The notes under the pieces: model-generated | Told to the model about the DNA's origin: nothing | Seen by the model: the letters and a program-made list of their open reading frames with translations, nothing else | Databases searched by the model: none | Translations under genes and position numbers: made by a program | In this document: positions 17,715-44,099 of the stretch, one piece after another | Layout of the letters: each line of letters begins with the position of its first letter | Position numbering within the stretch: position 1 is the stretch's first letter | Assembly (NCBI GenBank): GCA_963556145.1 | Contig: OY744465.1 | Coordinates: forward strand, 5,022,001 to 5,086,000 | Origin: Hygrocybe punicea | Taxonomy: Eukaryota; Basidiomycota; Agaricomycetes; Agaricales; Hygrophoraceae | Direction of reading: 5' to 3' | Length of the DNA stretch: 64,000 nucleotides

Positions 17715-18508
17715 TGTAGAGGGTCCTCGACCCTCTGAGGCCGTAACATCGATATCTAGCGAATCCGCTCGAACCCGACGTCTCTAGCAATCTACGTTCG
17801 AACCCAACGCAACCCGACGCAACCCGATGCATACCGACTAGCACGGCCGCTCACGTACCTGGTCGGTCTATCCCCTAAACTCGCGGAACTTCAAATATCA
17901 AAGATAGATCTCATCGGACTGGGATCCCGACATCGGACTTGCCTTATTCACGCCTAGCGTCTCCCTTATGGGGATATAGTAAAGTACTTTGCATCTTTTA
18001 CGGTTTTTTATATCTTCCACCCATTTTCCCTGTCATCGTCACCTCGCAACGCTCTTCCTACTTCCCCATTTTTATTCTCCTTTGTTTCCTCTCATCGGCC
18101 GAGGACTCTCATCCGAATCTAGGTACAGAACTTTGTAGTATAAAAACGGTGCCCAAGCGCCGTCTCAAAAAAAAGAAACCAGTTCCCCCATTTCCTCTCT
18201 CTGAGAATTAGTCTCTCAGTAAATTCCATCGCACACATTGCTCGTCGGATTCCTCGACGCCCTCCCCGTCATTCTACCGCCTTTATCTCTACGTTTCTCG
18301 TCACCCGACACCCGACCCACTGTACCCGACATCGTCGGCTTCGTCGGCTTCGATCGGTCTCGATAGAATTCAGTAGTTTACTCAGCGGCTTCTTACTTTT
18401 TATATCCTATTATCTTACTGAAGCTTGTTAGACTATTCCTAGTCACTTCTACGCTGACCCCACAGGCTTAGGATTATTATTCCGCAGCCACCCCGACCTC
18501 GCATTTAC
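17715..18508 (+). repeat. TE-A 5' LTR
   Basis: Begins TGTAGAGGG and ends TTTACA. It is repeated at 26701-27486 and, inverted, as the two LTRs of TE-B. It holds a TATA-like box at 18139-18145, which probably drives the genomic transcript. Confidence 0.93.
18135..18145 (+). promoter_or_regulatory. LTR promoter TATA-like element (GTAGTATAAAA)
   Basis: GTAGTATAAAA lies about 420 bp into the LTR and recurs in the otherwise diverged LTR of TE-C at 43619-43629. Conservation across both LTR families suggests the core promoter at the U3/R boundary. The transcription start itself is not visible. Confidence 0.6.
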
Positions 18509-18510
18509 AT

Positions 18511-18528: not shown

Positions 18529-19010
18529 AATAGTCTAGCACCACCATAGCTTCCTCTTCCCGTATCCCTCCCTCTGACCGTCGTCTTCGAGAACTTCCTC
18601 GAAGAACTCTTCAACAAGAACTCTCTTTAGTCGCCTTCGACCCGACAATCGACGACGACTTCTTCCAGCTAGTACCCGACCACCTCGCTCGACATAACAA
18701 TCTCCCGCTCGTCTCAGGGTCAAACACCCCCCTATATCTTTCATCCGACAGTCTCGAATCGGTCGATATACCGATAATTACCATTACACCCGACTCATCC
18801 GATCTCAGTTCGACACCCGCATCGCCTACGTCCCCGACTTCGACCTCACTAGAACCCCCGTCCACATCTTTGCTCTCGACATCGAAAACTCCGTCATCGT
18901 CATCGTCCCCGTCTTCGTCTTCGTCCACGCCGTCATCGCCCACGTTACCCGACCTGCTCATCGTACACCCGACAACCGCTTCATCGACATCTCAGCTCCT
19001 CCCACTCACA
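18529..19010 (+). other. TE-A 5' leader
   Basis: About 480 bp between primer binding site and the gag ATG, C/T-rich with TCGTC/CGTC-type runs toward the 3' end. The gag frame is open upstream of its ATG for at least 140 bp, but no in-frame ATG was found there. The corresponding leader of TE-B is longer because GACGATGAC-type units have expanded. Confidence 0.6.
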
Positions 19011-21266
19011 ATGACTTCGACCTCTGGATCCTCGACCGCTCCCCACGTTACCGCTCCCCATGTTACTCCACGACAAATGCCCGCTCGCGGTCACTCCACG
19101 GCCCCGACCTTCGACGGGAACCCGCTCAATTTAAACCGCTTCTTCGAAGAAGTCGAGATACTTGCTGCCGATGCCGCTCTCGACGACGCAGGACGCATCA
19201 AGCATAGTCTGCGCTACGCGTCGCTTAGTGACTACGAGCTTTGGGCAAGTTTACCTAGCGCGACCGGCGTCGATTATGCCGCATTCAAAAGGAGCGTACT
19301 CGTGCTATACCCGGGCACGGAAGACGATCACCGGTACACTATGGCGGATCTCGACCGTCTTACGCACACCCAAACCGCTTACGGTATCCGTACCCGCGCC
19401 GAACTTGGCGAATATTACAGCGAGTTCATTCGGATCTCGGGATTCCTCTTAGACAAGGGTCGGATCTCTCCCCGAGAACACAACATTGCGTATGAGAACG
19501 GCTTCCATGTCGAGCTTAAAAAGGACATCAAAACCCGTCTGCAGTACCAAAAGCCGAACCATTTCCATAGCGACCCTTACGACTTCCAGGACTTCCACAA
19601 TTGCGCCCACTTCCTGCTGGCCGGAACCGCGGCCGAACCGTCCACCGTCTCTCGTCTATCATCAACGTCGCCTGCCGCCATCCGGTACTCGACTGCAATA
19701 GAACCCGCCACCCGCTACCCGCCACCCGCTCGCTATGACCCGGTCATTCCTAAAGCGGAACCGGTCGAACCTAACGTATCCGACCTATTTCGTCTCGTTT
19801 CGCAACAACTCGCCGTCCTCACACAGGCCCTCACCGAACGCAACAACCCCCCAAAGCCATGTGCAAATAGGGCTGAGCCGACCACCGCGGGACAGGGTTT
19901 CACCAATTTCAACTGCCTCTTTTGCGACGACCCGTTCCATCGTATACGCGATTGTCCCATCTGCGAGCAGTACACTCGAGACGGGATATGCCGCAAGAAC
20001 GAGCACGGCTGCATCGTGTTGCCTAACGGAATGTATCTTCCAAAGGCTATCGTCGGCAAAAATATGAGGGAATGCTTCGACGCGTGGCACGCACAGAACC
20101 CCGGCAACCGTGCTCCCCCTGCCCGCAACCCCACAGAACCGTTCCAACGCGACCCGCCGCCTCATGTAAAAGCTAACTTCGTCTCCGCCGTCGAAATACC
20201 CACCTACGAACCAGAGGTCACCACCGAGTACGCCGACATCTTTCAGTCCACGACGTCCGACATCGACGACGACAACGAACAGATTAAGGTTCTGGAAGCC
20301 GAAGTGCAGCGGCTTTGTAAACGGGTTAGATTCGACGGTGTAGAGATCCCATCAAAGACGAAAGGCAAGTCTAGAGAAACGTTTCCCAATCTGCCCACCA
20401 CTTCCACGTCTGTCCCCGCCGCGAAACCCGCCGAGAAAACGGCCAGACCTGTCAACGAGCAGCCGATCACCATAGTCCCCCCTTCGAACACGCGGCCGAC
20501 CGAGCTGACCGCCCTTGTACCGCGCACTCCCCAGAACCTTCCCGCATCGCACCCCCAATACCGCTACCAAGCCCCCATCAAAGATCCCGGTATCGCCAAA
20601 TCCGTCATCGACCGCGCGCTCGATTCTCAAGTCTGCATTTCACAGCGAGAACTTTTAGCCATGTCGTCCGACGCCCACCGTCACATGAAGGACCTCACTA
20701 CGTCGAAAAAGGTCACCGCCGAAAGTAACAACGTCGAGGTTTTCCATTTTCACGCACCCGAAATCCCCACTCGCGCCTGTCAACACTGTCAGGAAAACGT
20801 CCCGCTCATCGTCGGCCGCGACTCAGTCCCTCTCCGTGCAGTCTACCCGCTCATCAACGGCAAATTCGTATTTGAGTGCGTCCTCGACAATGGTTCCATG
20901 ATCATCGGCATGCGACGCGATATTTGGGAGAAACTCGGTTACGGCCTCCAAAATATGAAGATGCGGATGCAGTCGGCAAATAAAAGCGACAACGACACCC
21001 TCGGCCGGATCGCCAACCTAAAATTCACTTTTGGCGACGTCGATCTTTTCCTCCAAGTCCAAGTCGTCGACGACGCCCCCTACGAGATCCTCATCGGCCG
21101 TCCGTTCTTCACGCTTTCCGAGGCTCTTACGAAGGATTATAAAAATGGAGAACAACAAGTCACGATCATGGATCCAAACACCGGCGCCGTCGTCACCTTG
21201 CCCACCATCGAGCACAACCAAAAGAACCGACGAGAGCGGTCCGACACCGGAAAGCTGGATTTTTAG
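19011..21266 (+). CDS. TE-A Gag with zinc knuckle and protease domain
   Basis: A 751-residue frame. The capsid-like region (about 25-215; APTFDGNPLNLNRFFEEVEI, YGIRTRAELGEYY, ISGFLLDKGR) is shared with TE-C gag. A Pro-rich linker leads to a CCHC knuckle, CLFCDDPFHRIRDC (about 303-316). The C-terminal third resembles a retropepsin: FECVLDNGSMIIGM and then YEILIGRPFF. The usual D-T/S-G reads D-N-G here and in TE-B. The frame ends in GATTTTTAG, and the pol frame lies at -1 and overlaps. The ATG was chosen as the first in frame and is the same in TE-B. Confidence 0.9.
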   Translation: MTSTSGSSTAPHVTAPHVTPRQMPARGHSTAPTFDGNPLNLNRFFEEVEILAADAALDDAGRIKHSLRYASLSDYELWASLPSATGVDYAAFKRSVLVLYPGTEDDHRYTMADLDRLTHTQTAYGIRTRAELGEYYSEFIRISGFLLDKGRISPREHNIAYENGFHVELKKDIKTRLQYQKPNHFHSDPYDFQDFHNCAHFLLAGTAAEPSTVSRLSSTSPAAIRYSTAIEPATRYPPPARYDPVIPKAEPVEPNVSDLFRLVSQQLAVLTQALTERNNPPKPCANRAEPTTAGQGFTNFNCLFCDDPFHRIRDCPICEQYTRDGICRKNEHGCIVLPNGMYLPKAIVGKNMRECFDAWHAQNPGNRAPPARNPTEPFQRDPPPHVKANFVSAVEIPTYEPEVTTEYADIFQSTTSDIDDDNEQIKVLEAEVQRLCKRVRFDGVEIPSKTKGKSRETFPNLPTTSTSVPAAKPAEKTARPVNEQPITIVPPSNTRPTELTALVPRTPQNLPASHPQYRYQAPIKDPGIAKSVIDRALDSQVCISQRELLAMSSDAHRHMKDLTTSKKVTAESNNVEVFHFHAPEIPTRACQHCQENVPLIVGRDSVPLRAVYPLINGKFVFECVLDNGSMIIGMRRDIWEKLGYGLQNMKMRMQSANKSDNDTLGRIANLKFTFGDVDLFLQVQVVDDAPYEILIGRPFFTLSEALTKDYKNGEQQVTIMDPNTGAVVTLPTIEHNQKNRRERSDTGKLDF

Positions 21267-21367
21267 AAGTCGAGGACCCGGAGATACCTCTCGGAAAGGA
21301 CGCACCGGGAGATGAGAAGCCGCCACTCGAAAGCGACCACACCTATACCACGAACTATGCTTCCCTT

Positions 21368-24300
21368 TTGCCGTTTCCCCTAGAAGAGGACTTATGTTTT
21401 TCTATCGATTTAGATTTCTCTTCGTCTCAGCCTCAGACTGCTGCCCAGTACATTTCATTGTTGACCGATGTACAAAATCAGCTACGTACTACCGATACCC
21501 TTCCTTCGTCTTGTTCCGTCTCCGCTCCTGCGTCACATATTTCCTCTTCGAATATTTGTAACAAAGCCTCTACTGAACACGCTACTTATATCTCGTATAC
21601 CACCCCCCCTACCAGGGACCTAAAAGGAGTCGTTACCAAGAAAAAGTATAAGAAGGTAGCCGATCGTATCCGCCCAATTTCTACCACTCTCCCCGACGAA
21701 TACCGCATCATACGCGAGATCACCGGCGACCCGCTAGCCGATTTACCCACGCTCCCGACTCACCCGCCCAACTTTACACCCGGCACCCGCTATACCCAGG
21801 AACAACACGACGCGATGCCGATGAACTCGGATGGATTCCTTTGGCCTGAGGAAGAAAAACTCGGCCACCATATCATCAAAACGCAAGAAGCTGCCTTCGC
21901 CTGGAACGAATCCGAGAAAGGCCAGTTCAATACGGACTACTTCCCGCCGATCCACATTCCCACCGTACCGCACGACCCGTGGGTCCATCGCAATATCCCA
22001 ATCCCACCCGGCATCCTTAACGAAGTCATCGGCATCATCAAAGACAAAATTAACGCCGGTACCTATGAACCCTCGAATTTGTCATACCGCTCCCGCTGGT
22101 TCTGCGTTTTGAAAAAGGATGGGAAGTCTCTTCGAATCGTCCACGATCTACAGCCGCTTAACGCCGTCACTATCTGCGATCCCGCCGTACCGCCCATGAC
22201 CGAGCACTTGGCCGAGGCCTTTGGCGGCCACTCTTGCTATGCTTCCTTCGACCTCTTCGTCTCTTTTGACCAACCCCTCGTCCACCCCTCGTCTCGTGAC
22301 TATATGACCTTTCAGTCTCCTCTCAGAACGCTTCGACTTACGTGGATTGCTATGGGATACACAAATTCCCCGCAGATCCTACACGGTGACTCCACGTACA
22401 TCCTCCGTGACGAAATCCCTCATCTTGCCGTTCCATATATGGACGATATTCCTGTCAAAGGGCCTCCAACCCGTTACGAGCAACCCGACGGTACCTACGA
22501 GACTATACCCAAGAACCCGGCAATCCGACATTTCATTTGGGAGCACTTCCAAGGTGTCAACCGCGTCATCCAGCGTTTCTGCTATGTTGGCGGTACCTTC
22601 AACGGCAAAAAACTCGAGTTGTGTCGACCCTCAGTCATCGTTGTTGGCCACCGATGCACATACGAAGGAAGAGTAGCCGACGACTCCAAAGTACAGAAGA
22701 TTCGCGATTGGCCACTGCCGACCAACCTCACCGAAGTTCGCGCCTTTCTCGGCATCTGCGGCGTCTTGCGTATTTTTATCAAGGACTTCTCGCTCCACTC
22801 CCGACCCCTCGTCCGTCTTACCCGCAAAGGTATACCCTTCGAATTTGGTGAAGAAGAAGAGACCGCCGTTGACTACCTCAAAAACGCCGTCATTACGTCG
22901 CCAGCGCTGCGCGCTATCGACTACACGCGTGAATGGGAAGTGATTCTCGCCGTCGATTCATCCGTTCTTGGAGTCGGCTTCGTTCTTATGCAAATCCGCG
23001 CCGACGGAAAGTGCTATCCGAATCGCTTTGGTTCAATATCGTGGAACGAACGCGAAGCCCGATACTCCCAGTCCAAGCTCGAACTCTACGGCCTCTTCAG
23101 GGCCCTCCGCGCCTATCGGATTTTCATTATCGGCGTCCGCAACCTCACCGTTGAAGTCGACGCGAAGTACATAAAAGGGATGCTCAACAACCCCGACATT
23201 CAGCCCAATGCAACGATCAACCGATGGATAGCCGGCGTGCTCTTATTTGACTTTAGACTCGTTCACGTACCCGCTTCCGCACACGGTGCACCCGACGGAC
23301 TCTCCCGACGTCCCCGCGCTGCAGAAGACCCCGAGGAGATCAACGACTCCGACGATTGGCTCGACCACTCCTACGGTTTCTTTATGGAAGTCGTCAACTA
23401 CCGACCCGTCCCCATACCGTCTAAGCCGATTGCCGTATGCGGCCGCTGCCGTGCCACAGCCGACCGACTCCAAGAATTACCCGCCGTCCTCGTCTACACA
23501 AATCAGGAAGCCGTATCTGACATACCGCGATCCGATAAAGCCCGCGCGGCCGACGCTCGTCTTGCCCTCGTCGAGACTTGGTTACGAGATCTAACCCGAC
23601 CCGCGAACTTCACGGACGAAGAATACCGTCTGTTCCTACGATACGCCCTTGAATTCTTCGTCACCGATAACAAGCTTTGGCGCAAAGACCGTCACGGAAA
23701 ACACAAACTCGTCATACCGCCCGACCGCCGGCTTCAGTTACTCAAAGACGCTCACGACTCTCTCGGCCACAAAGGTATATTCTCCGTCCGCGCTCGGCTA
23801 CTCGACCGTTTCTGGTGGCCGCACCTCGACCACGACGTCAAGTGGTACGTCCAGTCTTGCCATCAGTGCCAAGTACGGCAAATGCGTTATCATCACATTC
23901 CGCCCACCGTCGCTACACCGGCCTCGCTATTTCGTAAAGCGTATGTCGACACAATGTTTATGCCACGATCCGGCGGCTATCGATACATCGTCCAAGCCCG
24001 TTGCTCCCTGTCCGCCTACCCTGAGTTCCGCATGTTACACCGCGAGACCGGCTCCACCATCGGCACGTTCTTGTTCGAAGACATCTTATGCCATTGGGGC
24101 GCTCTCGAAGAAATCGTTACCGACAACGGCAAGCCGTTCGTAGAAGCGCTCGACTATCTTGCCTCCCGCTACGGTATCCGCCACATCCGCATTTCGCCCT
24201 ATAACTCACAAGCGAACGGACCCGTTGAGCGTCGCCACCTAGATGTCCGGGAGGCCATTATGAAAAGTTGTGACGGAGATGAAAAGAAATGGCACACCGT

Positions 24301-24916
24301 AACCCACTCCGTATTTTGGGCCGAACGGGTCACGACACACAAAAGCCTCGGATACTCGTCCTACTACATCGCACATGGAGTAGAACCGCTTTTTCCATTC
24401 GATTTTGCCGAAGCTACGTACATGGTTCCGACGCAAGATATGATGTCTACGACTGACCTCATAGTCATCCGCGCCCGACAACTTCGTAAACGAGAAGCCG
24501 ACCTCGATCGGGTCAAAGAAAAGCTTACCAAATCTCGGCTCGCGTCCGCCCGGCAATTCGAGCAGAAATACGCCAACACGATCAAAGTTTACGACTTCGA
24601 ACCCGGTAACCTCATTCTCGTCCGAAATTCACGTATCGAAATGTCTCTCGATCGTAAAGCAAAACCCTGGTACTTTGGACCCATGGTTGTCGTCAGGAAA
24701 ACAGTAGGCGGATCCTACATACTCGCCGAACTCGACGGTGCGGTTTCTAAATCTCGATTTGCCGCTTTCCGAGTCGTACCCTACCACGCCTGCTCAAAAA
24801 TATCGATACCGTTGGACGACTTCTTACAATACCCCGATGCCGACGATACCGATTCAAACGATCTTGACGATCCGACGTACCCGCCCTCTATAGACTCCTC
24901 ACCCGACGACGATTAA
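21368..24916 (+). CDS. TE-A Pol: reverse transcriptase, RNase H, integrase
   Basis: An open frame of about 1,180 residues in the -1 frame relative to gag. It is open leftward through the gag stop, so it has no start of its own and 21368 is only a reference point. RT motifs include WFCVLKKDGKSLRIVHDLQP, ASFDLFVSFDQ and the catalytic PYMDD (about residue 357). RNase H follows (LAVDSSVLGVGFVLMQI, KLELYGLFRALRAYR, APDGLSRRPR). Integrase has the H-H-C-C finger (HDSLGHKG, CHQC) and a catalytic triad at about D861, D919 and E954, which I count as DD34E. Relative to TE-B it carries Arg to Cys changes at TGC 22175, 22580 and 23012 and Arg to His near 24090. A chromodomain was not recognised. The frame itself is intact. 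Confidence 0.93.
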   Translation: MPFPLEEDLCFSIDLDFSSSQPQTAAQYISLLTDVQNQLRTTDTLPSSCSVSAPASHISSSNICNKASTEHATYISYTTPPTRDLKGVVTKKKYKKVADRIRPISTTLPDEYRIIREITGDPLADLPTLPTHPPNFTPGTRYTQEQHDAMPMNSDGFLWPEEEKLGHHIIKTQEAAFAWNESEKGQFNTDYFPPIHIPTVPHDPWVHRNIPIPPGILNEVIGIIKDKINAGTYEPSNLSYRSRWFCVLKKDGKSLRIVHDLQPLNAVTICDPAVPPMTEHLAEAFGGHSCYASFDLFVSFDQPLVHPSSRDYMTFQSPLRTLRLTWIAMGYTNSPQILHGDSTYILRDEIPHLAVPYMDDIPVKGPPTRYEQPDGTYETIPKNPAIRHFIWEHFQGVNRVIQRFCYVGGTFNGKKLELCRPSVIVVGHRCTYEGRVADDSKVQKIRDWPLPTNLTEVRAFLGICGVLRIFIKDFSLHSRPLVRLTRKGIPFEFGEEEETAVDYLKNAVITSPALRAIDYTREWEVILAVDSSVLGVGFVLMQIRADGKCYPNRFGSISWNEREARYSQSKLELYGLFRALRAYRIFIIGVRNLTVEVDAKYIKGMLNNPDIQPNATINRWIAGVLLFDFRLVHVPASAHGAPDGLSRRPRAAEDPEEINDSDDWLDHSYGFFMEVVNYRPVPIPSKPIAVCGRCRATADRLQELPAVLVYTNQEAVSDIPRSDKARAADARLALVETWLRDLTRPANFTDEEYRLFLRYALEFFVTDNKLWRKDRHGKHKLVIPPDRRLQLLKDAHDSLGHKGIFSVRARLLDRFWWPHLDHDVKWYVQSCHQCQVRQMRYHHIPPTVATPASLFRKAYVDTMFMPRSGGYRYIVQARCSLSAYPEFRMLHRETGSTIGTFLFEDILCHWGALEEIVTDNGKPFVEALDYLASRYGIRHIRISPYNSQANGPVERRHLDVREAIMKSCDGDEKKWHTVTHSVFWAERVTTHKSLGYSSYYIAHGVEPLFPFDFAEATYMVPTQDMMSTTDLIVIRARQLRKREADLDRVKEKLTKSRLASARQFEQKYANTIKVYDFEPGNLILVRNSRIEMSLDRKAKPWYFGPMVVVRKTVGGSYILAELDGAVSKSRFAAFRVVPYHACSKISIPLDDFLQYPDADDTDSNDLDDPTYPPSIDSSPDDD

Positions 24917-25124: not shown

Positions 25125-26530
25125 TTACAGGCGGCCGGTCTCGTAATCCCGCTTCAACATCGCCAACCTTGAGGTCGACCGTTCGAGATCGACGCGAAGC
25201 CGCTGGAACTCTTGACCGAAGTGGACGAGGTGACGATTGACGTTGGTGCCCAGGGCTCCCAGCTCCTCCATAAGGACCGCTAGCTGCGCCGACACTTGCT
25301 CGTAATTCTCCATCGTCAAAACAAACGGGTTCGCTGCCGAGGCCGTCCTAAGCCTTTTCGTCGGCCGCTCTTCCTCCGACTCCTCCTCGTCTTCGTCATC
25401 GTCCTCGACCGACTCCACATCCTCGACCGACTCCACGTCCTCGACCCGTGGTTTGCTCGTTGAGGCCCGGGCAGGCCTACTGCGGATGGGCTTTGTCGTG
25501 AACGACAACGGCTTCCTCGTGCCGGCCGCGACCTCTTTGCCCTTTCCGGTATCCACCTTGCGCCGACCCCCGCCCGTCTGGTGTGTAGCGTTAGTACATC
25601 TCTTCTTCAGCCTCCGGCATCGTTCGCACACGTAGCCCGTGACGCCTCGACACGCCTCTTGCGCCTTGACGCAGTTGGTGCAGGGTTGTAGGGGAAACAG
25701 CCCGGTGAACTGTTACCAGGATCAGTGACTAAAGAACAAATGAACCGACACAAGAACTCACCGTCGTACCAGCCAAGTCTCCGGTCTCTACGCCCGGCGT
25801 ATCTACGTCTTCTACATCGGCCGGTGTCTCTGGTGCCGGGTCAACGGGGCCTTCCTCTGGCTCAACTGTGGCTTCCCCTTCCGGAATCGACTCAGTCCTT
25901 GGTTCACCCGCGTTTGCTTCAGCTCGCCGTTCTTCGCTGAGCCGCCGCCGATACGCGGCTCCATCCCTTTCAACCCGGTCCGCTTCTTGATTCCAGTGCT
26001 GCTCGTGTTGTTCTATTCTAAGCCGCTCCCGCCTTTCCTCTGCCGCCTTTCGCCTTTTCTCCGCCTCCGCTCGTGCATTTGCCTCTGCCATCCGTCTGGC
26101 CTCCTCTTCCCGCATAGCCGCTTCTTCATCCGCCCGCCATCTGGCTTCTTCCTGTTCCTGCCTCTCCCGGTCCGCCGCTTCTTTCAGCCACTCTTCGACA
26201 TCGTTGGCGTACGATTGGCGGTCGGCCCATAACGGTGGCGTTACTGGCCTCGTACCACCAGCTCGGAGTTCCGCGACGATTCCATTATAAGCACGCTGGC
26301 GGGACGACATGAGCTATCTTAGGACACGCGTAGTCAATAAGGAAACTCACCAGCGCCTTCTTGCAGCCGCTTAACCATTGTTGGGCCATCCCCTCGTTGC
26401 CGTCCACCATCGTTACGAGGTCATTGCTATGAAACACGGTGACCGCGTTGACGGCCTCTTCGTAGTCCGCCCGGACATCGGGTTCGATGCTTTCGACGAA
26501 AGCGAGGAAGTTGTCGTAGACTTGGGACAT
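25125..26530 (-). CDS. TE-A antisense accessory gene: coiled-coil protein with Zn2Cys6-like cysteine cluster (3 exons)
   Basis: Exons on the minus strand are 26530-26351, 26295-25762 and 25709-25125. Both introns are GTGAGT...AG, phase 0, and 52-55 bp, giving 432 residues. Exon 1 encodes a conserved helical block (MSQVYDNFLAFVESIEPD). Exon 2 has EEWLKE and then a long Glu/Arg/Ala coiled coil (about 95-180). Exon 3 opens with PCTNCVKAQEAC and continues to CERCRRLKKRC: C-x2-C-x6-C-x7-C-x2-C-x6-C, the spacing of fungal Zn(II)2Cys6 DNA-binding clusters. Acidic and basic (RPTKRLR) stretches and a C-terminal helical region follow. It is not gag, pol or a typical env. Orthologous genes lie in TE-B and TE-C. 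Function is unknown; a nuclear DNA- or RNA-binding role is an inference. Confidence 0.85.
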
Positions 26531-26700
26531 TGTGAACGTGTGATGGTGTAGAGGAAAGGTCGGATCAACAACGAGAAATTTTTTTATTTTTTTACTTTGC
26601 CGTTGTTTGGCCGCTCACGTGATTGGCCACATTCGCGACCCGCATTCGGAGACCCCATATTCTCGACCACGGATGGTCTCTATTAGAAGACCCAAGGAGA

Positions 26701-27486
26701 TGTAGAGGGTCCTCGACCCTCTGAGGCCGTAACATCGATATCTAGCGAATCTGCTCGAACCCGACATCTCTAGCATTCTACGTTCGAACCCGACGCAACC
26801 CGACGCAACCCGATGCATACCGACTAGCATGGCCGCTCACGTACCTGGTCGGTCTATCCCCTAAACTCGCGGAACTTCAAATATCAAAGATAGATCTCAT
26901 CGGACTGGGATCCCGACATCGGACTTGCCTTATTCACGCCTAGCGTCTCCCTTATGGGGATATAGTAAAGTACTTTGCATCTTTTACGGTTTTTTATATC
27001 TTCCACCCATTTTCCCTGTCATCGTCGCCTCGCAACGCTCTTCCTACTTCCCCATTTTTATTCTCCTTTGTTTCCTCTCATCGGCTGAGGACTCTCGTCC
27101 GAATCTAGGTACAGAACTTTGTAGTATAAAAACGGTGCCCAAGCGCCGTCTCAAAAAAAAGAAACCAGTTCCCCCATTTCCTCTCTCTGAGAATTAGTCT
27201 CTCAGTAAATTCCATCGCACACATTGCTCGTCGGATTCCTCGACGCCCTCCCCGTCGTTCTACCGCCTTTATCTCTACGTTTCTCGTCACCCGACACCCG
27301 ACCCGCCGTACCCGACATCGTCGGCTTCGATCGGTCTCGATAGAATTCAGTAGTTTACTCGGCGGCTTCTTACTCTTTATATCCTATTATCTTACTGAAG
27401 CTTGTTAGACTATTCCTAGTCACTTCTACGCTGACCCCACAGGCTTAGGATTATTATTCCGCAGCCACCCCGACCTCGCATTTACA
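26701..27486 (+). repeat. TE-A 3' LTR
   Basis: Preceded by the purine-rich AGAAGACCCAAGGAGA (likely polypurine tract, 26685-26700). It is slightly shorter than the 5' LTR because a TCGTCGGCT-type unit is missing near 27320. Right target duplication CCGA is at 27487-27490. Confidence 0.93.
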
Positions 27487-29755: not shown

Positions 29756-30549
29756 TGTAAAGGCGAGGTCGGGGTGGCTGCGGAATAATAATCCTAAGCC
29801 TGTGGGGTCAGCGTAGAAGTGACTAGGAATAGTCTAACAAGCTTCAGTAAGATAATAGGATATAAAAGTAAGAAGCCGCCGAGTAAACTACTGAGATCTA
29901 TGGAGACCGATCGAAGCCGACGAGGCCGACGATGTCGGGTACGGCGGGTCGGGTGTCGGGTGACGAGTAACGTAGAGATAAAGGCGGTAGAACGACGGGG
30001 AGGGCGTCGAGGAATCCGACGAGCAATGTGTGCGATGGAATTTACTGAGAGACTTAATTCTCAGAGAGAGGAAATGGGGGAACTGGTTTCTTATTCTGAG
30101 ACGGCGCTTGGGCACCGTTTTTATACTACAAATTTGTGTACCTAGATTCGGACGAGAGTCCTCGGCCGATGAGAGGAGACAAAGGAGAATAAAAATGGGG
30201 AAGTAGGAAGAGCGTTGCGAGGCGACGATGACAGGGAAAATGGGTGGAAGATATAAAAAACCGTAAAAGATGCAATATACTTTACTATATCCCCATAAGG
30301 GAGACGCTAGGCGTGAATAAGGCAAGTCCGATGTCGGGATCCCAGTCCGATGAGATCTATCTATGATATTTGAAGTTCCGTGAGTTTAGGAGATAGACCG
30401 TCCAGGTACGTGAGCGGCCGTGCTAGTCGGTATGCATCGGGTTGCGTCGGGTTGCGTCGGGTTCGAACGTAGATTGCTAGAGACGTCGGGTTCGAGCGGA
30501 TTCGCTAGATATCGATGTTACGGCCTCAGAGGGTCGAGGACCCTCTACA
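29756..30549 (-). repeat. TE-B 3' LTR
   Basis: 794 bp, ending CCCTCTACA on the plus strand. The adjacent 30550-30565 is the complement of the purine tract AGAAGACCCAAGGAGA. Confidence 0.93.
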
Positions 30550-30717
30550 TCTCCTTGGGTCTTCTAATAGAGACCATCCGTGGTCGAGAATATGGGGTCT
30601 CCGAATGCGGGTCGCGAATGTGGCCAATCACGTGAGCGGCCAAACAACGGCAAAGTAAAAAAAGAAAAATTTCTCGTTGTTGATCCGACCTTTCCTCTAC
30701 ACCATCACACGTTCACA

Positions 30718-32105
30718 ATGTCCCAAGTCTACGACAACTTCCTCGCTTTCGTCGAAAGCATCGAACCCGATGTCCGGGCGGACTACGAAGAGGCCGTCAA
30801 CGCGGTCACCGTGTTTCATAGCGACGACCTCGTAACAATGGTGGACGGCAACGAGGGGATGGCCCAACAATGGTTAAGCGGCCGCAAGAAGGCGCTGGTG
30901 AGTTTCCTTATTGACTACGCGTGTCCTAAGATAGCTCATGCCGTCCCGCCAGCGTGCTTACAATGGAATCGTCGCGGAACTCCGAGCTGGTGGTACGAGG
31001 CCAGTAACGCCACCGTTATGGGCCGACCGCCAATCGTACGCCAACGATGTCGAAGAGTGGCTGAAAGAAGCGGCGGACCGGGAGAGGCAGGAACAGGAAG
31101 AAGCCAGACGGCGGGCGGATGAAGAAGCGGCTACGCGGGAAGAGGAGGCCAAACGGATGGCAGAGGCAAGTGCACGAGCGGAGGCGGAGAAAAGGCGAAA
31201 GGCGGCAGAGGAAAGGCGAGAGCGGCTTAGAATAGAACAACACGAGCAGCACTGGAATCAAGAAGCGGACCGGGTTGAAAGGGATGGAGCCGCGTATCGG
31301 CGGCGGCTCAGCGAAGAACGGCGAGCTGAAGCAAACGCGGGTGAACCAAGGACTGAGTCGATTCCGGAAGGGGAAGCCGCAGTTGAGCCAGAGGAAGGCC
31401 CCGTCGACCCGGCACCAGAGACACCGGCCGATGTAGACGACGTAGATACGCCGGGCGTAGAGACCGGAGACTTGGCTGGTACGACGGTGAGTTCTTGTGT
31501 CGGTTCATATGTTCTTTAGTTACTGATCCTGGTAACAGTTCACCGGGCCGTTTCCCCTACAACCCTGCACCAACTGCGTCAAGGCGCAAGAGGCGTGTCG
31601 AGGCGTCACGGGCTACGTGTGCGAACGATGCCGGAGGCTGAAGAAGAGATGTACTAACGCTACACACCGGACGGGCGGGGGTCGGCGCAAGGTGGATACC
31701 GGAAAGGGCAAAGAGGTCGCGGTCGGCACGAGGAAGCCGCTGTCGTTCACGACAAAACCCATCCGCAGTAGGCCTGCCCGGGCCTCAACGAGCAAACCGC
31801 GGGTCGAGGACGGGGAGTCGGTCGAGGACGATGACGAAGACGAGGAGGAGTCGGAGGAAGAGCGGCCGACGAAAAGGCTTAGGACGGCCTCGGCAGCGAA
31901 CCCGTTTGTTTTGACGATGGAGAATTACGAGCAAGTGTCGGCGCGGCTAGCGGTCCTTATGGAGGAGCTGGGAGCCCTGGGCACCAACGTCAACCGTCAC
32001 CTCGTCCACTTCGGTCAAGAGTTCCAGCGGCTTCGCGTCGATCTCGAACGGTCGACCTCAAGGTTGGCGATGTTGAAGCGGGATTACGAGACCGGCCGCC
32101 TGTAA
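30718..32105 (+). CDS. TE-B antisense accessory gene: coiled-coil / Zn2Cys6-like protein (3 exons)
   Basis: Exons 30718-30897, 30953-31486 and 31539-32105, 426 residues. Both splice sites and phase-0 introns match TE-A base for base. The six-cysteine cluster opens exon 3. The only notable length change is the loss of an 18-bp VEDVES-type repeat in the acidic region after the cluster. All differences from TE-A are compatible with an open frame, and the gene has stayed intact in a copy whose gag is broken. Its own promoter must lie between 30550 and 30717 or in the 3' LTR, since it runs against the element's main transcript. Confidence 0.85.
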
Positions 32106-32313
32106 AATATATATATAAAATAACGAGCCCATTGTATATATAAAAAAAATATATCGTGTACATAAAAGACGTGTCAGCTTGTTCACCCAGCTAAGGAAAG
32201 CCGATCGGCTCCCGAAGACATAGGACTATTCGCATCATTCGTCATATCGTTGGAAAACTAAGAGGAACTAAATAAAATGGGGGTATAACGTGGACAGAAT
32301 ATAAATGAAATGC

Positions 32314-35300
32314 TTAATCGTCGTCGGGTGAGGAGTCTATAGAGGGCGGGTACGTCGGATCGTCAAGATCGTTTGAATCGGTATCGTCGGCATCGGGGTA
32401 TTGTAAGAAGTCGTCCAACGGTATCGATATTTTTGAGCAGGCATGGTAGGGTACGACTCGGAAAGCGGCAAATCGAGATTTAGAAACCACACCGTCGAGT
32501 TCGGCGAGTATGTAGGATCCGCCTTCTGTTTTCCTGACGACAACCATGGGTCCAAAGTACCGCGGTTTTGCTTTACGATCGAGAGACATTTCGATACGTG
32601 AATTTCGGACGAGAACGAGGTTACCGGGTTCGAAGTCGTAAACTTTGATCGTGTTGGCGTATTTCTGCTCAAATTGCCGAGCGGACGCGAGCCGAGATTT
32701 GGTAAGTTTTTCTTTGACCCGATCGAGGTCGGCTTCTCGTTTACAAAGTTGTCGGGCGCGGATGACTATGAGGTCGGTCGTAGACATCATATCTTGCGTC
32801 GGAACCATGTACGTAGCTTCGGCAAAATCGAATGGAAACAGCGGTTCTACTCCGTGTGCGATGTAGTAGGACGAGTATCCGAGGCTTTTGTGTGTCGTGA
32901 CCCGTTCGGCCCAAAATACGGAGTGGGTTACGGTGTGCCATTTCTTTTCATCTCCGTCACAACTTTTCATAATGGCCTCCCGGACATCTAGGTGGCGACG
33001 CTCAACGGGTCCGTTCGCTTGTGAGTTATAGGGCGAAATGCGGATGTGGCGGATACCGTAGCGGGAGGCAAGATAGTCGAGCGCTTCTACGAACGGCTTG
33101 CCGTTGTCGGTGACGATTTCTTCGAGAGCGCCCCAACGGCATAAGATGTCTTCGAACAAGAACGTGCCGATGGTGGAGCCGGTCTCGCGGTGTAACATGC
33201 GGAACTCAGGGTAGGCGGACAGGGAGCAACGGGCTTGGACGATGTATCGATAACCGCCGGATCGTGGCATAAACATTGTGTCGACATACGCTTTACGAAA
33301 TAGCGAGGCCGGTGTAGCGACGGTGGGCGGAATGTGATGATAACGCATTTGCCGTACTTGGCACTGATGGCAAGACTGGACGTACCACTTGACGTCGTGG
33401 TCGAGGTGCGGCCACCAGAAACGGTCGAGTAGCCGAGCGCGGACGGAGAATATACCTTTGTGGCCGAGAGAGTCGTGAGCGTCTTTGAGTAACTGAAGCC
33501 GGCGGTCGGGCGGTATGACGAGTTTGTGTTTTCCGTGACGGTCTTTGCGCCAAAGCTTGTTATCGGTGACGAAGAATTCAAGGGCGTATCGTAGGAACAG
33601 ACGGTATTCTTCGTCCGTGAAGTTCGCGGGTCGGGTTAGATCTCGTAACCAAGTCTCGACGAGGGCAAGACGAGCGTCGGCCGCGCGGGCTTTATCGGAT
33701 CGCGGTATGTCAGATACGGCTTCCTGATTTGTGTAGACGAGGACGGCGGGTAATTCTTGGAGTCGGTCGGCTGTGGCACGGCAGCGGCCGCATACGGCAA
33801 TCGGCTTAGACGGTATGGGGACGGGTCGGTAGTTGACGACTTCCATAAAGAAACCGTAGGAGTGGTCGAGCCAATCGTCGGAGTCGTTGATCTCCTCGGG
33901 GTCTTCTGCAGCGCGGGGACGTCGGGAGAGTCCGTCGGGTGCACCGTGTGCGGAAGCGGGTACGTGAACGAGTCTAAAGTCAAATAAGAGCACGCCGGCT
34001 ATCCATCGGTTGATCGTTGCATTGGGCTGAATGTCGGGGTTGTTGAGCATCCCTTTTATGTACTTCGCGTCGACTTCAACGGTGAGGTTGCGGACGCCGA
34101 TAATGAAAATCCGATAGGCGCGGAGGGCCCTGAAGAGACCGTAAAGCTCGAGCTTGGACTGAGAGTATCGGGCTTCGCGTTCGTTCCACGATATTGAACC
34201 AAAGCGATTCGGATAGCGCTTTCCGTCGGCGCGGATTTGCATAAGAACGAAGCCGACTCCAAGAACGGATGAATCGACGGCGAGAATCACTTCCCATTCA
34301 CGCGTGTAGTCGATAGCGCGCAGCGCTGGCGACGTAATGACGGCGTTTTTGAGGTAGTCGATGGCGGTCTCTTCTTCTTCACCAAATTCGAAGGGTATAC
34401 CTTTGCGGGTAAGGCGGACGAGGGGTCGGGAGTGAAGCGAGAAGTCCTTGATAAAAATACGCAAGACGCCGCAGATGCCAAGAAAGGCGCGAACTTCGGT
34501 GAGGTTGGTCGGCAGTGGCCAATCGCGAATCTTCTGTACTTTGGAGTCGTCGGCTACTCTTCCTTCGTATGTGCATCGGTGGCCAACAACGATGACTGAG
34601 GGTCGACACAACTCGAGTTTTTTGCCATTGAAGGTACCGCCGACATAGCGGAAACGCTGGATGACGCGGTTGACACCTTGGAAGTGTTCCCAAATGAAAC
34701 GTCGGATTGCCGGGTTCTCGGGTATAGTCTCGTAGGTACCGTCGGGTTGCTCGTAGCGGGTTGGAGGCCCTTTGACGGGAATATCGTCCATATACGGAAC
34801 GGCAAGATGAGGGATTTCGTCACGGAGGATGTACGTAGAGTCACCGTGTAAGATCTGCGGGGAATTTGTGTATCCCATAGCAATCCGCGTAAGTCGAAGC
34901 GTTCCGAGTGGAGACTGAAAGGTCATATAGTCACGAGACGAGGGGTGGACGAGGGGTTGGTCGAAAGAGACGAAGAGGTCGAAGGAAGCGTAGCAAGAGT
35001 GGCCGCCAAAGGCCTCGGCCAAGTGCTCGGTCATGGGCGGTACGGCGGGATCGCGGATAGTGACGGCGTTAAGCGGCTGTAGATCGTGGACGATTCGAAG
35101 AGACTTCCCGTCCTTTTTCAAAACGCAAAACCAGCGGGAGCGATATGACGAATTCGAGGGTTCATAGGTACCGGCGTTAATTTTGTCTTTGATGATGCCG
35201 ATGACTTCATTAAGGATGCCGGGTGGGATTGGGATATTGCGATGGACCCACGGGTCGTGCGGTACGGTGGGAATGTGGATCGGCGGGAAGTAGTCCGTAT

Positions 35301-35862
35301 TGAACTGGCCTTTCTCGGATTCGTTCCAGGCGAAGGCGGCTTCTTGCGTTTTGATGATATGGTGGCCGAGTTTTTCTTCCTCAGGCCAAAGGAATCCATC
35401 CGGGTTCATCGGCATCGCGTCGTGTCGTTCCTGGGTATAGCGGGTGCCGGGTGTAAAGTCGGGCGGGTGAGTCGGGAGCGTGGGTAAATCGGCTAGCGGG
35501 TCGCCGGTGATCTCGCGTATGATGCGGTATTCGTCGGGGAGAGTGGTAGAAATTGGGCGGATACGATCGGCTACCTTCTTATACTTTTTCTTGGTAACGA
35601 CTCCTTTTAGGTCCCTGGTAGGGGGGGTGGTATACGAGATATAAGTAGCGTGTTCAGTAGAGGCTTTGTTACAAATATTCGAAGAGGAAATATGTGACGC
35701 AGGAGCGGAGACGGAACAAGACGAAGGAAGGGTATCGGTAGTACGTAGCTGATTTTGTACATCGGTCAACAATGAAATGTACTGGGCGGCAGTCTGGGGC
35801 TGAGACGAAGAGAAATCTAAATCGATAGAAAAACATAAGTCCTCTTCTAGGGGAAACGGCAA
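32314..35862 (-). CDS. TE-B Pol: reverse transcriptase, RNase H, integrase
   Basis: An open frame of about 1,180 residues, nearly identical to TE-A Pol and likewise in the -1 frame relative to gag. RT PYMDD, the RNase H region and integrase H-H-C-C plus D-D-E motifs are all present. At several positions where TE-A has Cys, His, Trp or Leu, TE-B has Arg or Ser from a CpG-containing codon (TIRDPAVPP, RFRYVGG, DGKRYPN, LCRWGAL). TE-B therefore probably preserves the ancestral state. One change goes the other way (RQLCKRE against RQLRKRE). This is the best-preserved pol of the window. Confidence 0.93.
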   Translation of the reverse strand: MPFPLEEDLCFSIDLDFSSSQPQTAAQYISLLTDVQNQLRTTDTLPSSCSVSAPASHISSSNICNKASTEHATYISYTTPPTRDLKGVVTKKKYKKVADRIRPISTTLPDEYRIIREITGDPLADLPTLPTHPPDFTPGTRYTQERHDAMPMNPDGFLWPEEEKLGHHIIKTQEAAFAWNESEKGQFNTDYFPPIHIPTVPHDPWVHRNIPIPPGILNEVIGIIKDKINAGTYEPSNSSYRSRWFCVLKKDGKSLRIVHDLQPLNAVTIRDPAVPPMTEHLAEAFGGHSCYASFDLFVSFDQPLVHPSSRDYMTFQSPLGTLRLTRIAMGYTNSPQILHGDSTYILRDEIPHLAVPYMDDIPVKGPPTRYEQPDGTYETIPENPAIRRFIWEHFQGVNRVIQRFRYVGGTFNGKKLELCRPSVIVVGHRCTYEGRVADDSKVQKIRDWPLPTNLTEVRAFLGICGVLRIFIKDFSLHSRPLVRLTRKGIPFEFGEEEETAIDYLKNAVITSPALRAIDYTREWEVILAVDSSVLGVGFVLMQIRADGKRYPNRFGSISWNEREARYSQSKLELYGLFRALRAYRIFIIGVRNLTVEVDAKYIKGMLNNPDIQPNATINRWIAGVLLFDFRLVHVPASAHGAPDGLSRRPRAAEDPEEINDSDDWLDHSYGFFMEVVNYRPVPIPSKPIAVCGRCRATADRLQELPAVLVYTNQEAVSDIPRSDKARAADARLALVETWLRDLTRPANFTDEEYRLFLRYALEFFVTDNKLWRKDRHGKHKLVIPPDRRLQLLKDAHDSLGHKGIFSVRARLLDRFWWPHLDHDVKWYVQSCHQCQVRQMRYHHIPPTVATPASLFRKAYVDTMFMPRSGGYRYIVQARCSLSAYPEFRMLHRETGSTIGTFLFEDILCRWGALEEIVTDNGKPFVEALDYLASRYGIRHIRISPYNSQANGPVERRHLDVREAIMKSCDGDEKKWHTVTHSVFWAERVTTHKSLGYSSYYIAHGVEPLFPFDFAEATYMVPTQDMMSTTDLIVIRARQLCKREADLDRVKEKLTKSRLASARQFEQKYANTIKVYDFEPGNLVLVRNSRIEMSLDRKAKPRYFGPMVVVRKTEGGSYILAELDGVVSKSRFAAFRVVPYHACSKISIPLDDFLQYPDADDTDSNDLDDPTYPPSIDSSPDDD

Positions 35863-35963
35863 AAGGGAAGCATAGTTCGTGGTATAGGTGTGGTCGCTTT
35901 CGAGTGGCGGCTTCTCATCTCCCGGTGCGTCCTTTCCGAGAGGTATCTCCGGGTCCTCGACTT

Positions 35964-38226
35964 CTAAAAATCCGGCTTTCCGGTGTCGGACCGCTCTCGT
36001 CGGTTCTTTTGGTTGTGCTCGATGGTGGGCAAGGTGACGACGGCGCCGGTGTTTGGATCCGTGATCGTGACCTGTTGTTCTCCGTTTTTATAATCCTTCG
36101 TAAGAGCCTCGGAAAGCGTGAAGAACGGGCGGCCGATGAGGATCTCGTAGGGGGCGTCGTCGACGACTTGGACTTGGAGGAAAAGATCGACGTCGCCGAA
36201 GGTGAATTTTAGGTTGGCGATCCGGCCGAGGGTGTCGTTGTCGCTTTTATTTGCCGACTGCATCCGCATCTTCATATTTTGGAGACCGTAACCGAGTTTC
36301 TCCCAAATATCGCGCCGCATGCCGATGATCATGGAACCGTTGTCGAGGACGCACTCGAATACGAATTTGCCGTTGATGAGCGGGTAGACCGCACGGAGAG
36401 GGACTGAGTCGCGGCCGACGACGAGCGGGACGTTTTCCTGACAGTGTTGACAGGCGCGAGTGGGGATTTCGGGTGCGTGAAAGTGGAAGACCTCGACGTT
36501 GTTACTCTCGGCGGTGACCTTTTTCGACGTAGTGAGGTCCTTCATGTGACGGCGGGCGTCGGACGACATGGCTAAAAGTTCTCGCTGCGAAATGCAGACT
36601 TGAGAATCGAGCGCGCGGTTGATGACGGACTTGGCGATACCGGGATCTTCGATGGGGGCTTGGTAGCGGTATTGGGGGTGCGATGCGGGAAGGTTCTGGG
36701 GAGTGCGCGGTACAAGGGCGGTCGGCTCGGTCGGCCGCGTGTTCGAAGGGGGGACTATGGTGATCGGCTGCTCGTTGATAGGTCTGGTCGTTTTCTCGGC
36801 GGGTTTCGCGGCGGGGACAGACGTGGAAGTGGTGGGCAGATTGGGAAACGTTTCTCTAGACTTGCCTTTCGCCTTAGATGGGATCTCTACACCGTCGAAT
36901 CTAACCCGTTTACGAAGCCGCTGCACTTCGGCTTCCAGAACCTTAATCTGTTCGTTGTCGTCGTCGATGTCGGACGTCGTGGACTGAAAGATGTCGGCGT
37001 ACTCGGTGGTGACCTCTGGTTCGTAGGTGGGTACTTCGACGGCGGAGACGAAGTTAGCTTTGACGTGAGGCGGCGGGTCGCGTTGGAACGGTTCTGTGGG
37101 GTTGCGGGCAGGGGGAGCGCGGTTGCCGGGGTTCTGTGCGTGCCACGCGTCGAAGCGTTCCCTCATATTTTTGCCGACGATAGCCTTTGGAAGATACTTT
37201 CCGTTAGGCAACACGATGCGGCCGTGCTCGTTCTTGCGGCATATCCCGTCTCGAGTGTACTGCTCGCAAATAGGACAATCGCGTATACGATGGAACGGGT
37301 CGTCGCAAAAGAGGCAGTTGAAATTGGTGAAACCCTGTCCCGCGGTGGTCGGCTCAGCCCTATTTGCACACGGCTTTGGGGGGTTGTTGCGTTCGGTGAG
37401 GGCTTGCGTGAGGACGGCGAGTTGTTGCGAAATGAGACGAAATAGGTCGGATACGTTAGGTTCGACCGGTTCCGCTTTAGGAATGACCGGGTCATAGCGA
37501 GCGGGTGGCGGGTAGCGGGTGGCGGGTGGCGGGTTCCATTGGAGTCGAGTACCGGATGGCGGCAGGCGACGTTGACGAGAGACGAGAGACGGTGGACGGT
37601 TCGGCCGCGGTTCCGGCCAGCAAGAAGTGGGCGCAATTGTGGAAGTCCTGGAAGTCGTAAGGGTCGCTATGGAAATGGTTCGGTTTTTGGTACTGCAGAC
37701 GGGTTTTGATGTCCTTTTTAAGCTCGACATGGAAGCCGTTCTCGTACGCGATGTTGCGTTCTCGGGGAGAGATTCGACCCTTGTCTAAGAGGAATCCCGA
37801 GATCCGGATGAACTCGCGGTAATATTCGCCAAGTTCAGCGCGGGTACGGATACCATAAGCGGTTTGGGTGTGCGTAAGACGGTCGAGATCCGCCATAGTG
37901 TACCGGTGATCGTCTTCCGTACCCGGGTATAGCACGAGTACGCTCTTTTTGAATGCGGCATAATCGACGCCGGTCGCGCTAGGTAAACTTGCCCAAAGCT
38001 CGTAGTCGCTAAGCGACGCGTAGCGCAAACTATGCTTGATGCGTCCTGCGTCGTCGAGAGCGGCATCGGCAGCAAGTATCTCGACTTCTTCGAAGAAGCG
38101 GTTTAAATTGAGCGGGTTCCCGTCGAAGGTCGGGGCCGTGGAGTGACCGCGAGCGGGCATTTGTTGTGGAGTAACATGGGGAGCGGTAACGTGGGGAGCG
38201 GTCGAAGATCCAGAGGTCGAAGTCAT
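35964..38226 (-). pseudogene. TE-B Gag, frameshifted by a 7-bp repeat expansion
   Basis: Gag starts at ATG 38226 with the same capsid-like domain as TE-A and reads in frame to about 37540. There a CCACCCG unit is present once more than in TE-A (in the CCCGCCACCCGC run, about 37500-37545), shifting the frame. The rest continues in the second frame through the CCHC knuckle, Pro-rich linker and D-N-G protease-like domain to TAG 35964. The gag-pol junction has the same GATTTTTAG. A full-length Gag cannot be made from this copy without frame correction, although pol and the antisense gene are open. Confidence 0.85.
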
Positions 38227-38249
38227 TGTGGGTGGAAGAAGCTGAAATG

Positions 38250-38785
38250 TCGATGAAGCGGTTGTCGGGTGTACGATGAGCGGGTCGGGTAACGTGGGCG
38301 ATGACGGCGTGGGCGAAGACGATGACGGGGACGATGACGACGTAGGCGATGACGATGACGGGGACGATGACGATGACGGATTATTCGATGTCGAGAGCGA
38401 AGACGGAGACGATGACGATGACGGAGTTTTCGATATCGAGAGCGAAGACGTGGACGGGGGTTCTAACGAGGTCGAAGTCGGGGACGTAGGCGATGCGGGT
38501 GTCGAACTGAGATCGGATGAGTCGGGTGTGATGGTAATTATCGGTATATCGACCGATTCGAGACTGTCGGATGAAAGATATAGGGGGGTGTTTGACCCTG
38601 AGACGAGCGGGAGATTGTTATGTCGAGCGAGGTGGTCGGGTACTAGCTGGAAGAAGTCATCGTCGATTGTCGGGTCGAAGGCGGCTAAAGAGAGTTCTTG
38701 TTGAAGAGTTCTTCGAGGAAGATCTCGAAGACGACGGTCAGAGGGAGGGATACGGGAAGAGGAAGCTATGGTGGTGCTAGACTAT
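38250..38785 (-). other. TE-B 5' leader with expanded GACGATGAC repeats
   Basis: Between the primer binding site and gag ATG. Positions about 38300-38450 are built of GACGATGACG/GGGACGATGAC units, about 90 bp more than in TE-A. No conserved coding sequence is assigned here. Confidence 0.6.
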
Positions 38786-38805
38786 TCCTCGCGGTGGGCT
38801 CCAGA

Positions 38806-42380: not shown

Positions 42381-42462
42381 AGTGGATAGAAAGATTTGGG
42401 TATGCTGGTCTTAACCCAAAAAACAAGAATGCAATTGATCTGGCAGAGCTTCAGTTGGACGA

Positions 42463-43905: not shown

Positions 43906-43907
43906 AC

Positions 43908-43925
43908 TGGAGCCCACCGCGAGGA
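43908..43925 (+). promoter_or_regulatory. TE-C primer binding site
   Basis: Same 18 nt as in TE-A and TE-B, 2 nt after the LTR. Use of the same tRNA primer by two diverged elements fits the idea that TE-C uses TE-A-like reverse transcriptase. Confidence 0.8.
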
Positions 43926-44099
43926 GTTTATTTCTTTTGTCTTTTCATACCCTCCCCACGGTCGGCTTTGACTTTCATGACGTTTCCCTCTTCTACCCGA
44001 CTCTAGTTATTTAGTTCCGCTTACGCCTTCGACCTCGACCTCGAACCTCCTCGACCCGACCCGCTTTCCGACCCGCATCCCGATTTAGACATTCCCGAT

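Follow-up and report, generated by a model that had tools for sequence, protein, structure and literature searches.

The window analysed here is a 64 kb stretch of Hygrocybe punicea DNA within a 92.2 Mb assembly, and three LTR elements, TE-A, TE-B and TE-C, lie in it. TE-A (17715-27486, plus strand, ~9.8 kb) is bounded by a 5' LTR at 17715..18509 and a 3' LTR at 26701..27486, which are 97.2% identical and flanked by the TSD CCGA. Its ORF1 (18534..21266, plus strand) encodes gag, with DUF4100 and an aspartyl protease match below the cut-off, and includes a C-x2-C-x4-H-x4-C motif read by eye. ORF2 (21143..24916, plus strand) carries RT, RNase H and integrase in the Ty3 order; the RT of TE-A is recognised by its YMDD motif alone, with no report from Pfam RVT_1. 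This domain order, which was searched on TE-A only, together with the LTRs, PBS and TSD, identifies a Ty3-type element. TE-B (29756..39599, minus strand, 9.8 kb) has LTRs at 29756-30549 and 38806-39599 that are 99.75% identical, with the TSD CCGT.

TE-C (43293..48404, plus strand) is shorter and has LTRs at 43293-43905 and 47792-48404 (99.8% identical; TSD GTGG). It encodes a gag of 582 aa (44007..45755, plus strand) with no pol after it; across 214 aa this gag shares 42% identity with that of TE-A (E = 1e-54). Searching the internal region of the window TE-C copy with TE-A pol gave a best match of E = 1.2, and this copy, which has only gag and an antisense gene between its LTRs, is therefore not an autonomous Ty3-type element. 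The sequence-only reading had placed the antisense gene opposite gag-pol, which holds for TE-A and TE-B, whereas in TE-C the gene stands opposite gag alone. In the 46 TE-C gag copies linked to the gene, gag directly adjoins it, so no pol lies between the two. All three elements have the LTR start TGTAGAGG, an identical 18-base PBS two bases past the 5' LTR, and GATGGTCTCTAT preceding the 3' LTR. Given these common features, a TE-A-like pol could plausibly mobilise TE-C.

Several other features were observed around these elements. Five TE-C gag copies on contig C35 of G000 (1852585-1871627) lie at an exact spacing of 4334 bases, which suggests a tandem array of TE-C-like units. Just left of TE-C in the window is a lone LTR-like stretch (42461-43054) with 77% identity to the TE-C LTR. 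An inverted repeat at 57644-58465 has 377-base arms that are 99% complementary and 68 bases apart. Open frames at 52940-54364 and 59292-61487 match poly(ADP-ribose) glycohydrolase and a caspase-fold domain (Peptidase_C14) and are probably host genes.

Structure of the antisense gene

In all three window copies, a gene lies beside the 3' LTR on the strand opposite to the element. In TE-A, positions 25125-26530 of the minus strand are the exact ATG-to-stop extent of this gene, which encodes 432 aa; its exons measure 180, 534 and 585 bases, the last counted with the stop, and its introns 55 and 52 bases. Exon 1 (26351..26530; 60 aa), the N-terminal block, runs from the ATG to a GT donor, and a TE-C exon 1 query retrieves A-type exon 1 at ~30% identity. 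Intron 1 (26296..26350; 55 nt, phase 0) has the form GTGAG..CAG, with its acceptor set by alignment with TE-C exon 2. Exon 2 (25762..26295; 178 aa) is, by the gene model and helix statistics, a charged single-helix segment, and it is followed by intron 2 (25710..25761; 52 nt, phase 0), again GTGAG..CAG. Exon 3 (25125..25709; 194 aa plus stop) contains a six-cysteine cluster, an acidic stretch and a C-terminal coiled coil, as placed by the gene model, alignment and a heptad test. The TE-B gene (30718..32105, plus strand) encodes 426 aa and has introns at 30898-30952 and 31487-31538. The TE-C gene (45884..47454, minus strand) encodes 489 aa in exons of 171, 720 and 579 bases, with introns of 49 (47283..47235) and 52 (46514..46463) bases. 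Both introns are GT-AG, phase 0 and at matching positions in the three copies, and the gene models agree in place and layout with the three-exon antisense gene with two phase-0 introns of the sequence-only reading.

The same architecture recurs through the genome. Copies were picked as best-scoring or deliberately diverged, not at random, and the set of 68 distinct copies leaves out the window copies (L001, L006, L012, L018), same-place loci (L037, L038, L030, L029) and L067, which gave no match in splice modelling. A two-intron GTRAG..AG model fits 62 of these 68 copies. The spliced frame is open from end to end in 37 of them (21/39 A and 16/29 C); 25 are broken, four are incomplete, and L047 and L048 have no splice model. 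The intron 2 donor reads GT[AG]AGT in 51/51 rows (duplicate places included), and the intron keeps a length of 49-53 bases with diverged interiors. Intron 1 varies in length in one-base steps and measures 54-56 bases in the majority of A copies. Exon 2 comes in 13 different whole-codon lengths between 408 and 720 bases, and in 56/62 models its length is divisible by three; the count over all models is the fair figure, since open status already requires whole codons. A 93-base tandem duplication (31 codons) at 46809-46994 of the window lengthens the charged helix of TE-C exon 2 in frame. Introns that are antisense to an element are not spliced out of its sense RNA; they stay in that RNA and hence survive retrotransposition.

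Linkage to the element and selection on the protein

An integrase query gave 103 listed matches, 76 of which have a listed antisense gene, in every case on the opposite strand (76/76) and, among the matches listed, mostly 206-216 bases downstream of the integrase match. Of the 27 integrase copies for which no gene was listed, 18 were inspected directly, and 17 of these have all three exons; the exception is L067, where the element match ends ~150 bases past the pol stop. The presence of the gene in other family members, on which the sequence-only reading depended, is thus borne out in 93 of the 94 integrase copies examined among the 103 matches listed. For TE-C gag, 75 matches were listed and 46 have a listed gene, always on the opposite strand and at 134-144 bases in 44/46. 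The gene lies on the antisense strand in the interval that separates the last sense ORF from the 3' LTR, occurs in the majority of copies and is conserved to a degree comparable with the other genes of the element. In these sequence attributes it agrees with the antisense additional ORFs found between pol and 3' LTR (aORF-3R). As read from the sequence, it is a gene of the element and travels with two related LTR-element families.

Relatives also exist beyond this genome record. A profile search with exon 3 found four JGI metagenome proteins: P0001, which is TE-C-like and 87% identical to TE-C exon 3; P0002, judged TE-C-like by eye; P0003, a more distant relative at 43%; and P0004, a fragment that resembles TE-A but lacks the cysteine region (59% identical across 72% of the query). 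The full-length TE-A protein had no match at E 0.001 among the best 8000 candidates from a 5.8-billion database, and no relative was found in the viral contigs scanned.

Codon-level comparisons by Nei-Gojobori counting indicate that the protein is under selection. In the gene frame, dN/dS is 0.14-0.24 between TE-A and the diverged copies L041 and L043-L046, and 0.24-0.30 between TE-C and L047, L048, L053 and L054; A-to-C dS is saturated in most comparisons. The sequence-only reading had named a ratio near 1 across intact copies as evidence against it; the values among diverged pairs (0.14-0.30) lie below 1. The five A relatives with the lowest dN/dS are broken or incompletely modelled copies, and of the C relatives L053 is open; such decay in most of the compared relatives should move the ratio towards 1, not away from it. 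Constraint is weaker among the young TE-A copies L002-L008 (0.36-0.58, with 20-24 differences each), and L028 gives 0.61. A piece of pol in six A relatives has a dN/dS of 0.09-0.38, comparable with the antisense gene. A comparison with TE-C gag also favours the antisense gene, whose ratio is below that of gag in 25/26 rows (21/22 distinct places, the exception being L028), but we place little weight on it because the gag alignments contain low-complexity stretches, the alignment of the gag core is clearly wrong in L015 and L016, and the order is reversed in L010 and L014 (gag core 0.18, antisense gene 0.20 and 0.29).

Could the true frame lie on the opposite strand, or could the long frames arise from composition? 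There are features that such an artefact would account for. A 162 aa open sense frame crosses TE-A exon 2 (25744-26232), one opposite frame of TE-C exon 1 is open in the window copy, and the wobble-aligned frame on the opposite strand also has a low dN/dS. In the five A relatives the other frames give 1.28-1.87 except for this mirror frame at 0.24-0.32 (0.24-0.36 over L040-L046), and in the four C relatives they give 0.75-1.85, with the mirror frame at 0.32-0.47. Moreover, the mirror frame of TE-C exon 3 is open in 15/29 copies, against 24/29 for the gene frame. However, the gene frame has the lowest ratio in all nine diverged pairs (9/9), every opposite-strand frame of each TE-A exon has a stop, the mirror frame of TE-A exon 3 is open in 0/39 copies against 33/39 for the gene frame, and cysteines and splice sites are invariant. 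An artefact of this kind is barely conceivable.

Two further alternatives meet the same evidence. One holds that the antisense RNA itself matters, through double-stranded RNA or interference, and that the protein is incidental. Sense and antisense genes do converge, and RNA roles of this kind are discussed for plant elements in passages of a review (PMC7264820). Nevertheless, selection on amino acids (dN/dS 0.14-0.30), the whole-codon lengths of exon 2 (56/62) and the open frames (37/68) are not what an RNA-only role predicts; this codon-level signal largely refutes it, leaving it very unlikely. The other holds that a host gene was captured by transduction as a passenger and has no role for the element, and the retained introns are as expected of a captured gene. 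Against it, the gene is present in 93/94 examined integrase copies, occurs in metagenome relatives as well as in two families whose exon 3 is 28% identical, and is under purifying selection. The codon evidence led us to reject the passenger reading as stated, which is extremely improbable, while an ancient capture of a host gene that was later put to use is possible. We are nearly certain that the antisense gene is a functional protein gene of the element.

Two of the diverged copies, L041 and L046, are mosaics. Their exon 3 (82-85% identical) and pol piece are close to those of TE-A, and exons 1-2 are only 51-60% identical, with a high or saturated dS. This pattern suggests recombination or template switching within the antisense gene.

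Protein anatomy and the upstream region

Exon 3 is 28% identical between TE-A and TE-C and contains six cysteines with the spacing C-x2-C-x6-C-x7-C-x2-C-x6-C. This spacing, as first noted from the sequence alone, is invariant in 11/11 aligned exon-3 proteins, and the cysteines and other fixed positions are kept across A, C and the metagenome proteins P0001-P0003. The number and spacing of the cysteines fall within the range of the Zn(II)2Cys6 class (PF00172), to which the sequence-only reading had likened the cluster. The likeness holds only that far. The Pfam Zn_clus profile scores 14.7 bits on TE-A exon 3 and 19.6 bits on a TE-C second-half fragment, below the gathering cut-off of 21, and it matches 9/11 exon-3 members at E up to 1 (best 0.013), likewise under the cut-off. 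In the matches shown, the second C-x2-C-x6-C aligns to profile positions 1-14 or 2-14, and fragments of the first cysteine half match no Pfam family. In the Gal4-type order the basic half, C-x2-C-R-x2-K-x-K-C, comes first; here the basic half is second. Because the second half aligns to the start of the profile, the two cysteine halves appear reversed relative to Gal4. The predicted cluster would bind zinc, and the domain may be a separate zinc-cluster arrangement missed by current profiles. A profile search of solved structures gave weak matches only, the best at E 0.057, and most of them fell in the coiled-coil stretch at the C-terminus.

The other parts of the protein were compared with shuffled sequences. 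Exon 2 had been described as a long coiled coil, a candidate that we rejected: its proline/glycine-free run shows no heptads, with hydrophobic a/d fractions of 0.38 and 0.39 against 0.45 and 0.38 in shuffles. Instead, charged i/i+4 pairs are in excess (22 against 11.9, and 33 against 20.3; reached in 0/2000 shuffles), a pattern that characterises single charged helices. A coiled coil is predicted at the C-terminus, where the last 70 and 67 residues have hydrophobic a/d fractions of 0.80 and 0.79, reached by at most 1/2000 shuffles. The antisense protein also has an acidic stretch and basic patches.

Upstream of the antisense ATG, each window copy has a CACGTG within TCACGTGA, the form also seen in the other copies displayed. 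It lies at 26616..26621 in TE-A, 91 nt upstream of the ATG and with a CCAAT beside it; at 30629..30634 in TE-B; and at 47562..47567 in TE-C, 113 nt upstream. The whole window holds six CACGTG, and three of them are these sites. Among 47 distinct copies (54 rows minus seven duplicate places), 41 from both families have CACGTG 88-114 bases upstream of the ATG, and L009, L011, L021, L026, L040 and L041 are the six without it. The upstream regions of the two families otherwise differ. Since related copies are not independent, this conservation amounts to at most two lineages sharing a site. The site resembles fungal bHLH/Cbf1 sites.

Triplets of CGG are the usual target of Zn2Cys6 proteins, and the LTRs were considered as a target in this sense. 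CGG/CCG triplets in the LTRs are not enriched over shuffles (31 against 29.3 in the TE-A 5' LTR; 20 against 15.5 in TE-C), a result that bears only indirectly on binding to CGG-type DNA. In the A/B LTRs (17715-18509 in the window), a 10-base tandem motif creates four to five CGG-N7-CGG repeats on the antisense strand, a count reached by at most 1/300 shuffles, and the TE-C LTR has one. With triplets within the shuffle range and the repeat confined to the A/B LTRs, the idea of a CGG target was dropped, and the repeat, missing as such from TE-C, is not used as evidence of a target.

A proposed role and comparison with known antisense genes

From the gene, splice sites, selection, linkage and absence of pol read in the DNA, a mechanism can be proposed in which transcription, splicing in vivo, zinc binding, nuclear location and target are all predictions. 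The gene would have a promoter of its own, located in the 3' LTR or immediately internal to it, with CACGTG ~90-115 nt upstream of the ATG. Splicing would occur only in the antisense direction, so that the introns outlast retrotransposition. The putative protein would combine an N-terminal block, a stiff charged helix as a spacer, a cluster of the Zn2Cys6 kind with reversed halves, a stretch that is acidic and has basic patches, and a coiled coil at the C-terminus, and it would dimerise in the nucleus. Dimerisation of HBZ, the antisense factor of HTLV-1, is mediated by its zipper, and an HBZ-like role is the one favoured here: the protein would specifically control its element, at the level of transcription (LTR or antisense) or through the RNA or Gag that the element itself makes. 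The action would probably be family-specific (own LTR, or own RNA or Gag) and not that of a general host-wide factor. The sequence-only reading had proposed a nuclear, perhaps nucleic-acid-binding factor, carried by the element under an antisense promoter, that could regulate LTR transcription, shield the element from silencing or aid integration. Purifying selection, the always-antisense linkage, the conserved introns and CACGTG favour a probably regulatory protein carried by the element in its own antisense unit; a plain Zn2Cys6 identity is not supported. As a whole, that the gene is maintained by the element and encodes a nuclear, element-specific regulator is a reading in which we have slightly less than even confidence, the regulator role included.

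TE-C is a natural experiment that narrows the function, in that pol is missing and gag and the antisense gene are kept. As the gag and antisense gene of TE-C have diverged and are nevertheless maintained by selection, both functions seem not to be supplied by the donor of pol. If an element can borrow pol, it could do the same with a factor that acts in trans; that TE-C kept its own version argues for element specificity. The retention of both genes also fits a partner of Gag or RNA, which is the main rival. In this alternative the antisense protein would act in the particle or in nuclear entry, by packaging the RNA of its element or by carrying the pre-integration complex, and not in transcription; basic patches and the cysteine cluster could allow RNA binding. 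However, a separate antisense transcript gives no fixed ratio to Gag, the cluster is more like a DNA-binding class than a CCHC knuckle, and ORF1 already has C-x2-C-x4-H-x4-C. We consider a Gag or RNA partner unlikely, though to be taken seriously.

TE-C also bears on the suggestion that the protein blocks host silencing of the element by RNAi or chromatin. The fast evolution of exon 2 would suit such a counter-defence. So would the substitutions in diverged copies compared with young references: C>T plus G>A make up 29-56% of the differences and the reverse changes 21-29%, in 11/11 copies, with a gap of only 1-3 points in L041 and L046. This excess is a modest sign of decay or host silencing. 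On the other hand, a host-directed factor acts in trans and TE-C could use that of TE-A, yet TE-C keeps its own, 28% identical in exon 3. Counter-defence therefore seems improbable.

Returning to the element-specific regulator, a bolder extension is that an HBZ-like system evolved in a retrotransposon lineage: the dimeric product of a spliced antisense gene would bear a new Zn2Cys6 cluster with its halves in reversed order, and the target specificity of this factor would have diverged with the LTR, RNA or Gag of each family. Pol-less elements could then parasitise the enzymes of another family but would have to bring their own factor, which would act as a determinant of family identity. This extension is speculative, and we regard it as possible but doubtful. 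Antisense genes of LTR elements have long been noted without an assigned function, and strong evidence of protein-level selection is now provided here. The question of antisense accessory genes thereby becomes testable, as LTR control versus Gag or RNA specificity.

Among fungi, an antisense gene, brtn, was reportedly described by Zhao et al. in 2011 in Boty-like Ty3/gypsy elements of Botrytis cinerea and Sclerotinia sclerotiorum. The brtn gene of Boty is also mentioned in passages of three papers (PMC8365987, PMC4227169, PMC5987419). For Grande, RIRE2, Retand, PvRetro13 and Boty of Botrytis/Sclerotinia, a review describes antisense ORFs of unknown function that follow pol and precede the 3' LTR, and it recommends a search for antisense and spliced transcripts (PMC7264820). 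The statement in the sequence-only reading that LTR elements normally encode only gag-pol (sometimes env) therefore understates what passages on plants and fungal Boty describe (PMC7264820, PMC11963269). Compared by description only, Boty-like elements resemble TE-A in being fungal Ty3-type elements in which an additional antisense gene separates pol from the 3' LTR (PMC7264820, in part), whereas their gag-pol has a chromodomain (PMC4227169, in part) and Pfam reported none in TE-A at E up to 1. In the plant aORF-3R elements (Grande gene23, RIRE2, Retand TRP28), most copies likewise have a conserved antisense ORF in this position; the Grande protein is described as nuclear and the Retand protein as predicted to bind DNA, and some Retand members are non-autonomous (passages of PMC7264820 and PMC11963269). 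Antisense TRP28 ORFs occur in 97% of Retand clusters (PMC11963269, in part). The plant proteins have other domains (TRP28, Smc), in contrast to the two introns and six-cysteine cluster found here, and the words 'intron' and 'zinc' are absent from the main texts of PMC7264820 and PMC11963269.

Among the top-ranked literature matches, none named an LTR element with an antisense gene that is spliced or encodes a zinc cluster. Fungal Zn(II)2Cys6 proteins (PF00172) share with the present protein six cysteines in two C-x2-C-x6-C units, one half of which scores against the profile; they differ in that the present cluster falls below the cut-off, has its basic half second and belongs to elements whose LTRs lack CGG enrichment. 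Relative to the aORF-3R genes described in these matches, what appears new is the introns, the reversed zinc cluster and the retention by a pol-less element, and the protein is not a canonical Zn(II)2Cys6 protein. A similar arrangement is that of HBZ of HTLV-1, which in passages of the literature is antisense, spliced, located at the 3' LTR and codes for a bZIP factor (PMC3736048, PMC12313066) that is nuclear (PMC11963269). HBZ is a bZIP protein of an exogenous retrovirus, whereas a zinc cluster is predicted here, so the likeness is one of arrangement and homology is not claimed. If the proposed role is true, retrotransposons and deltaretroviruses would have reached a similar design independently.
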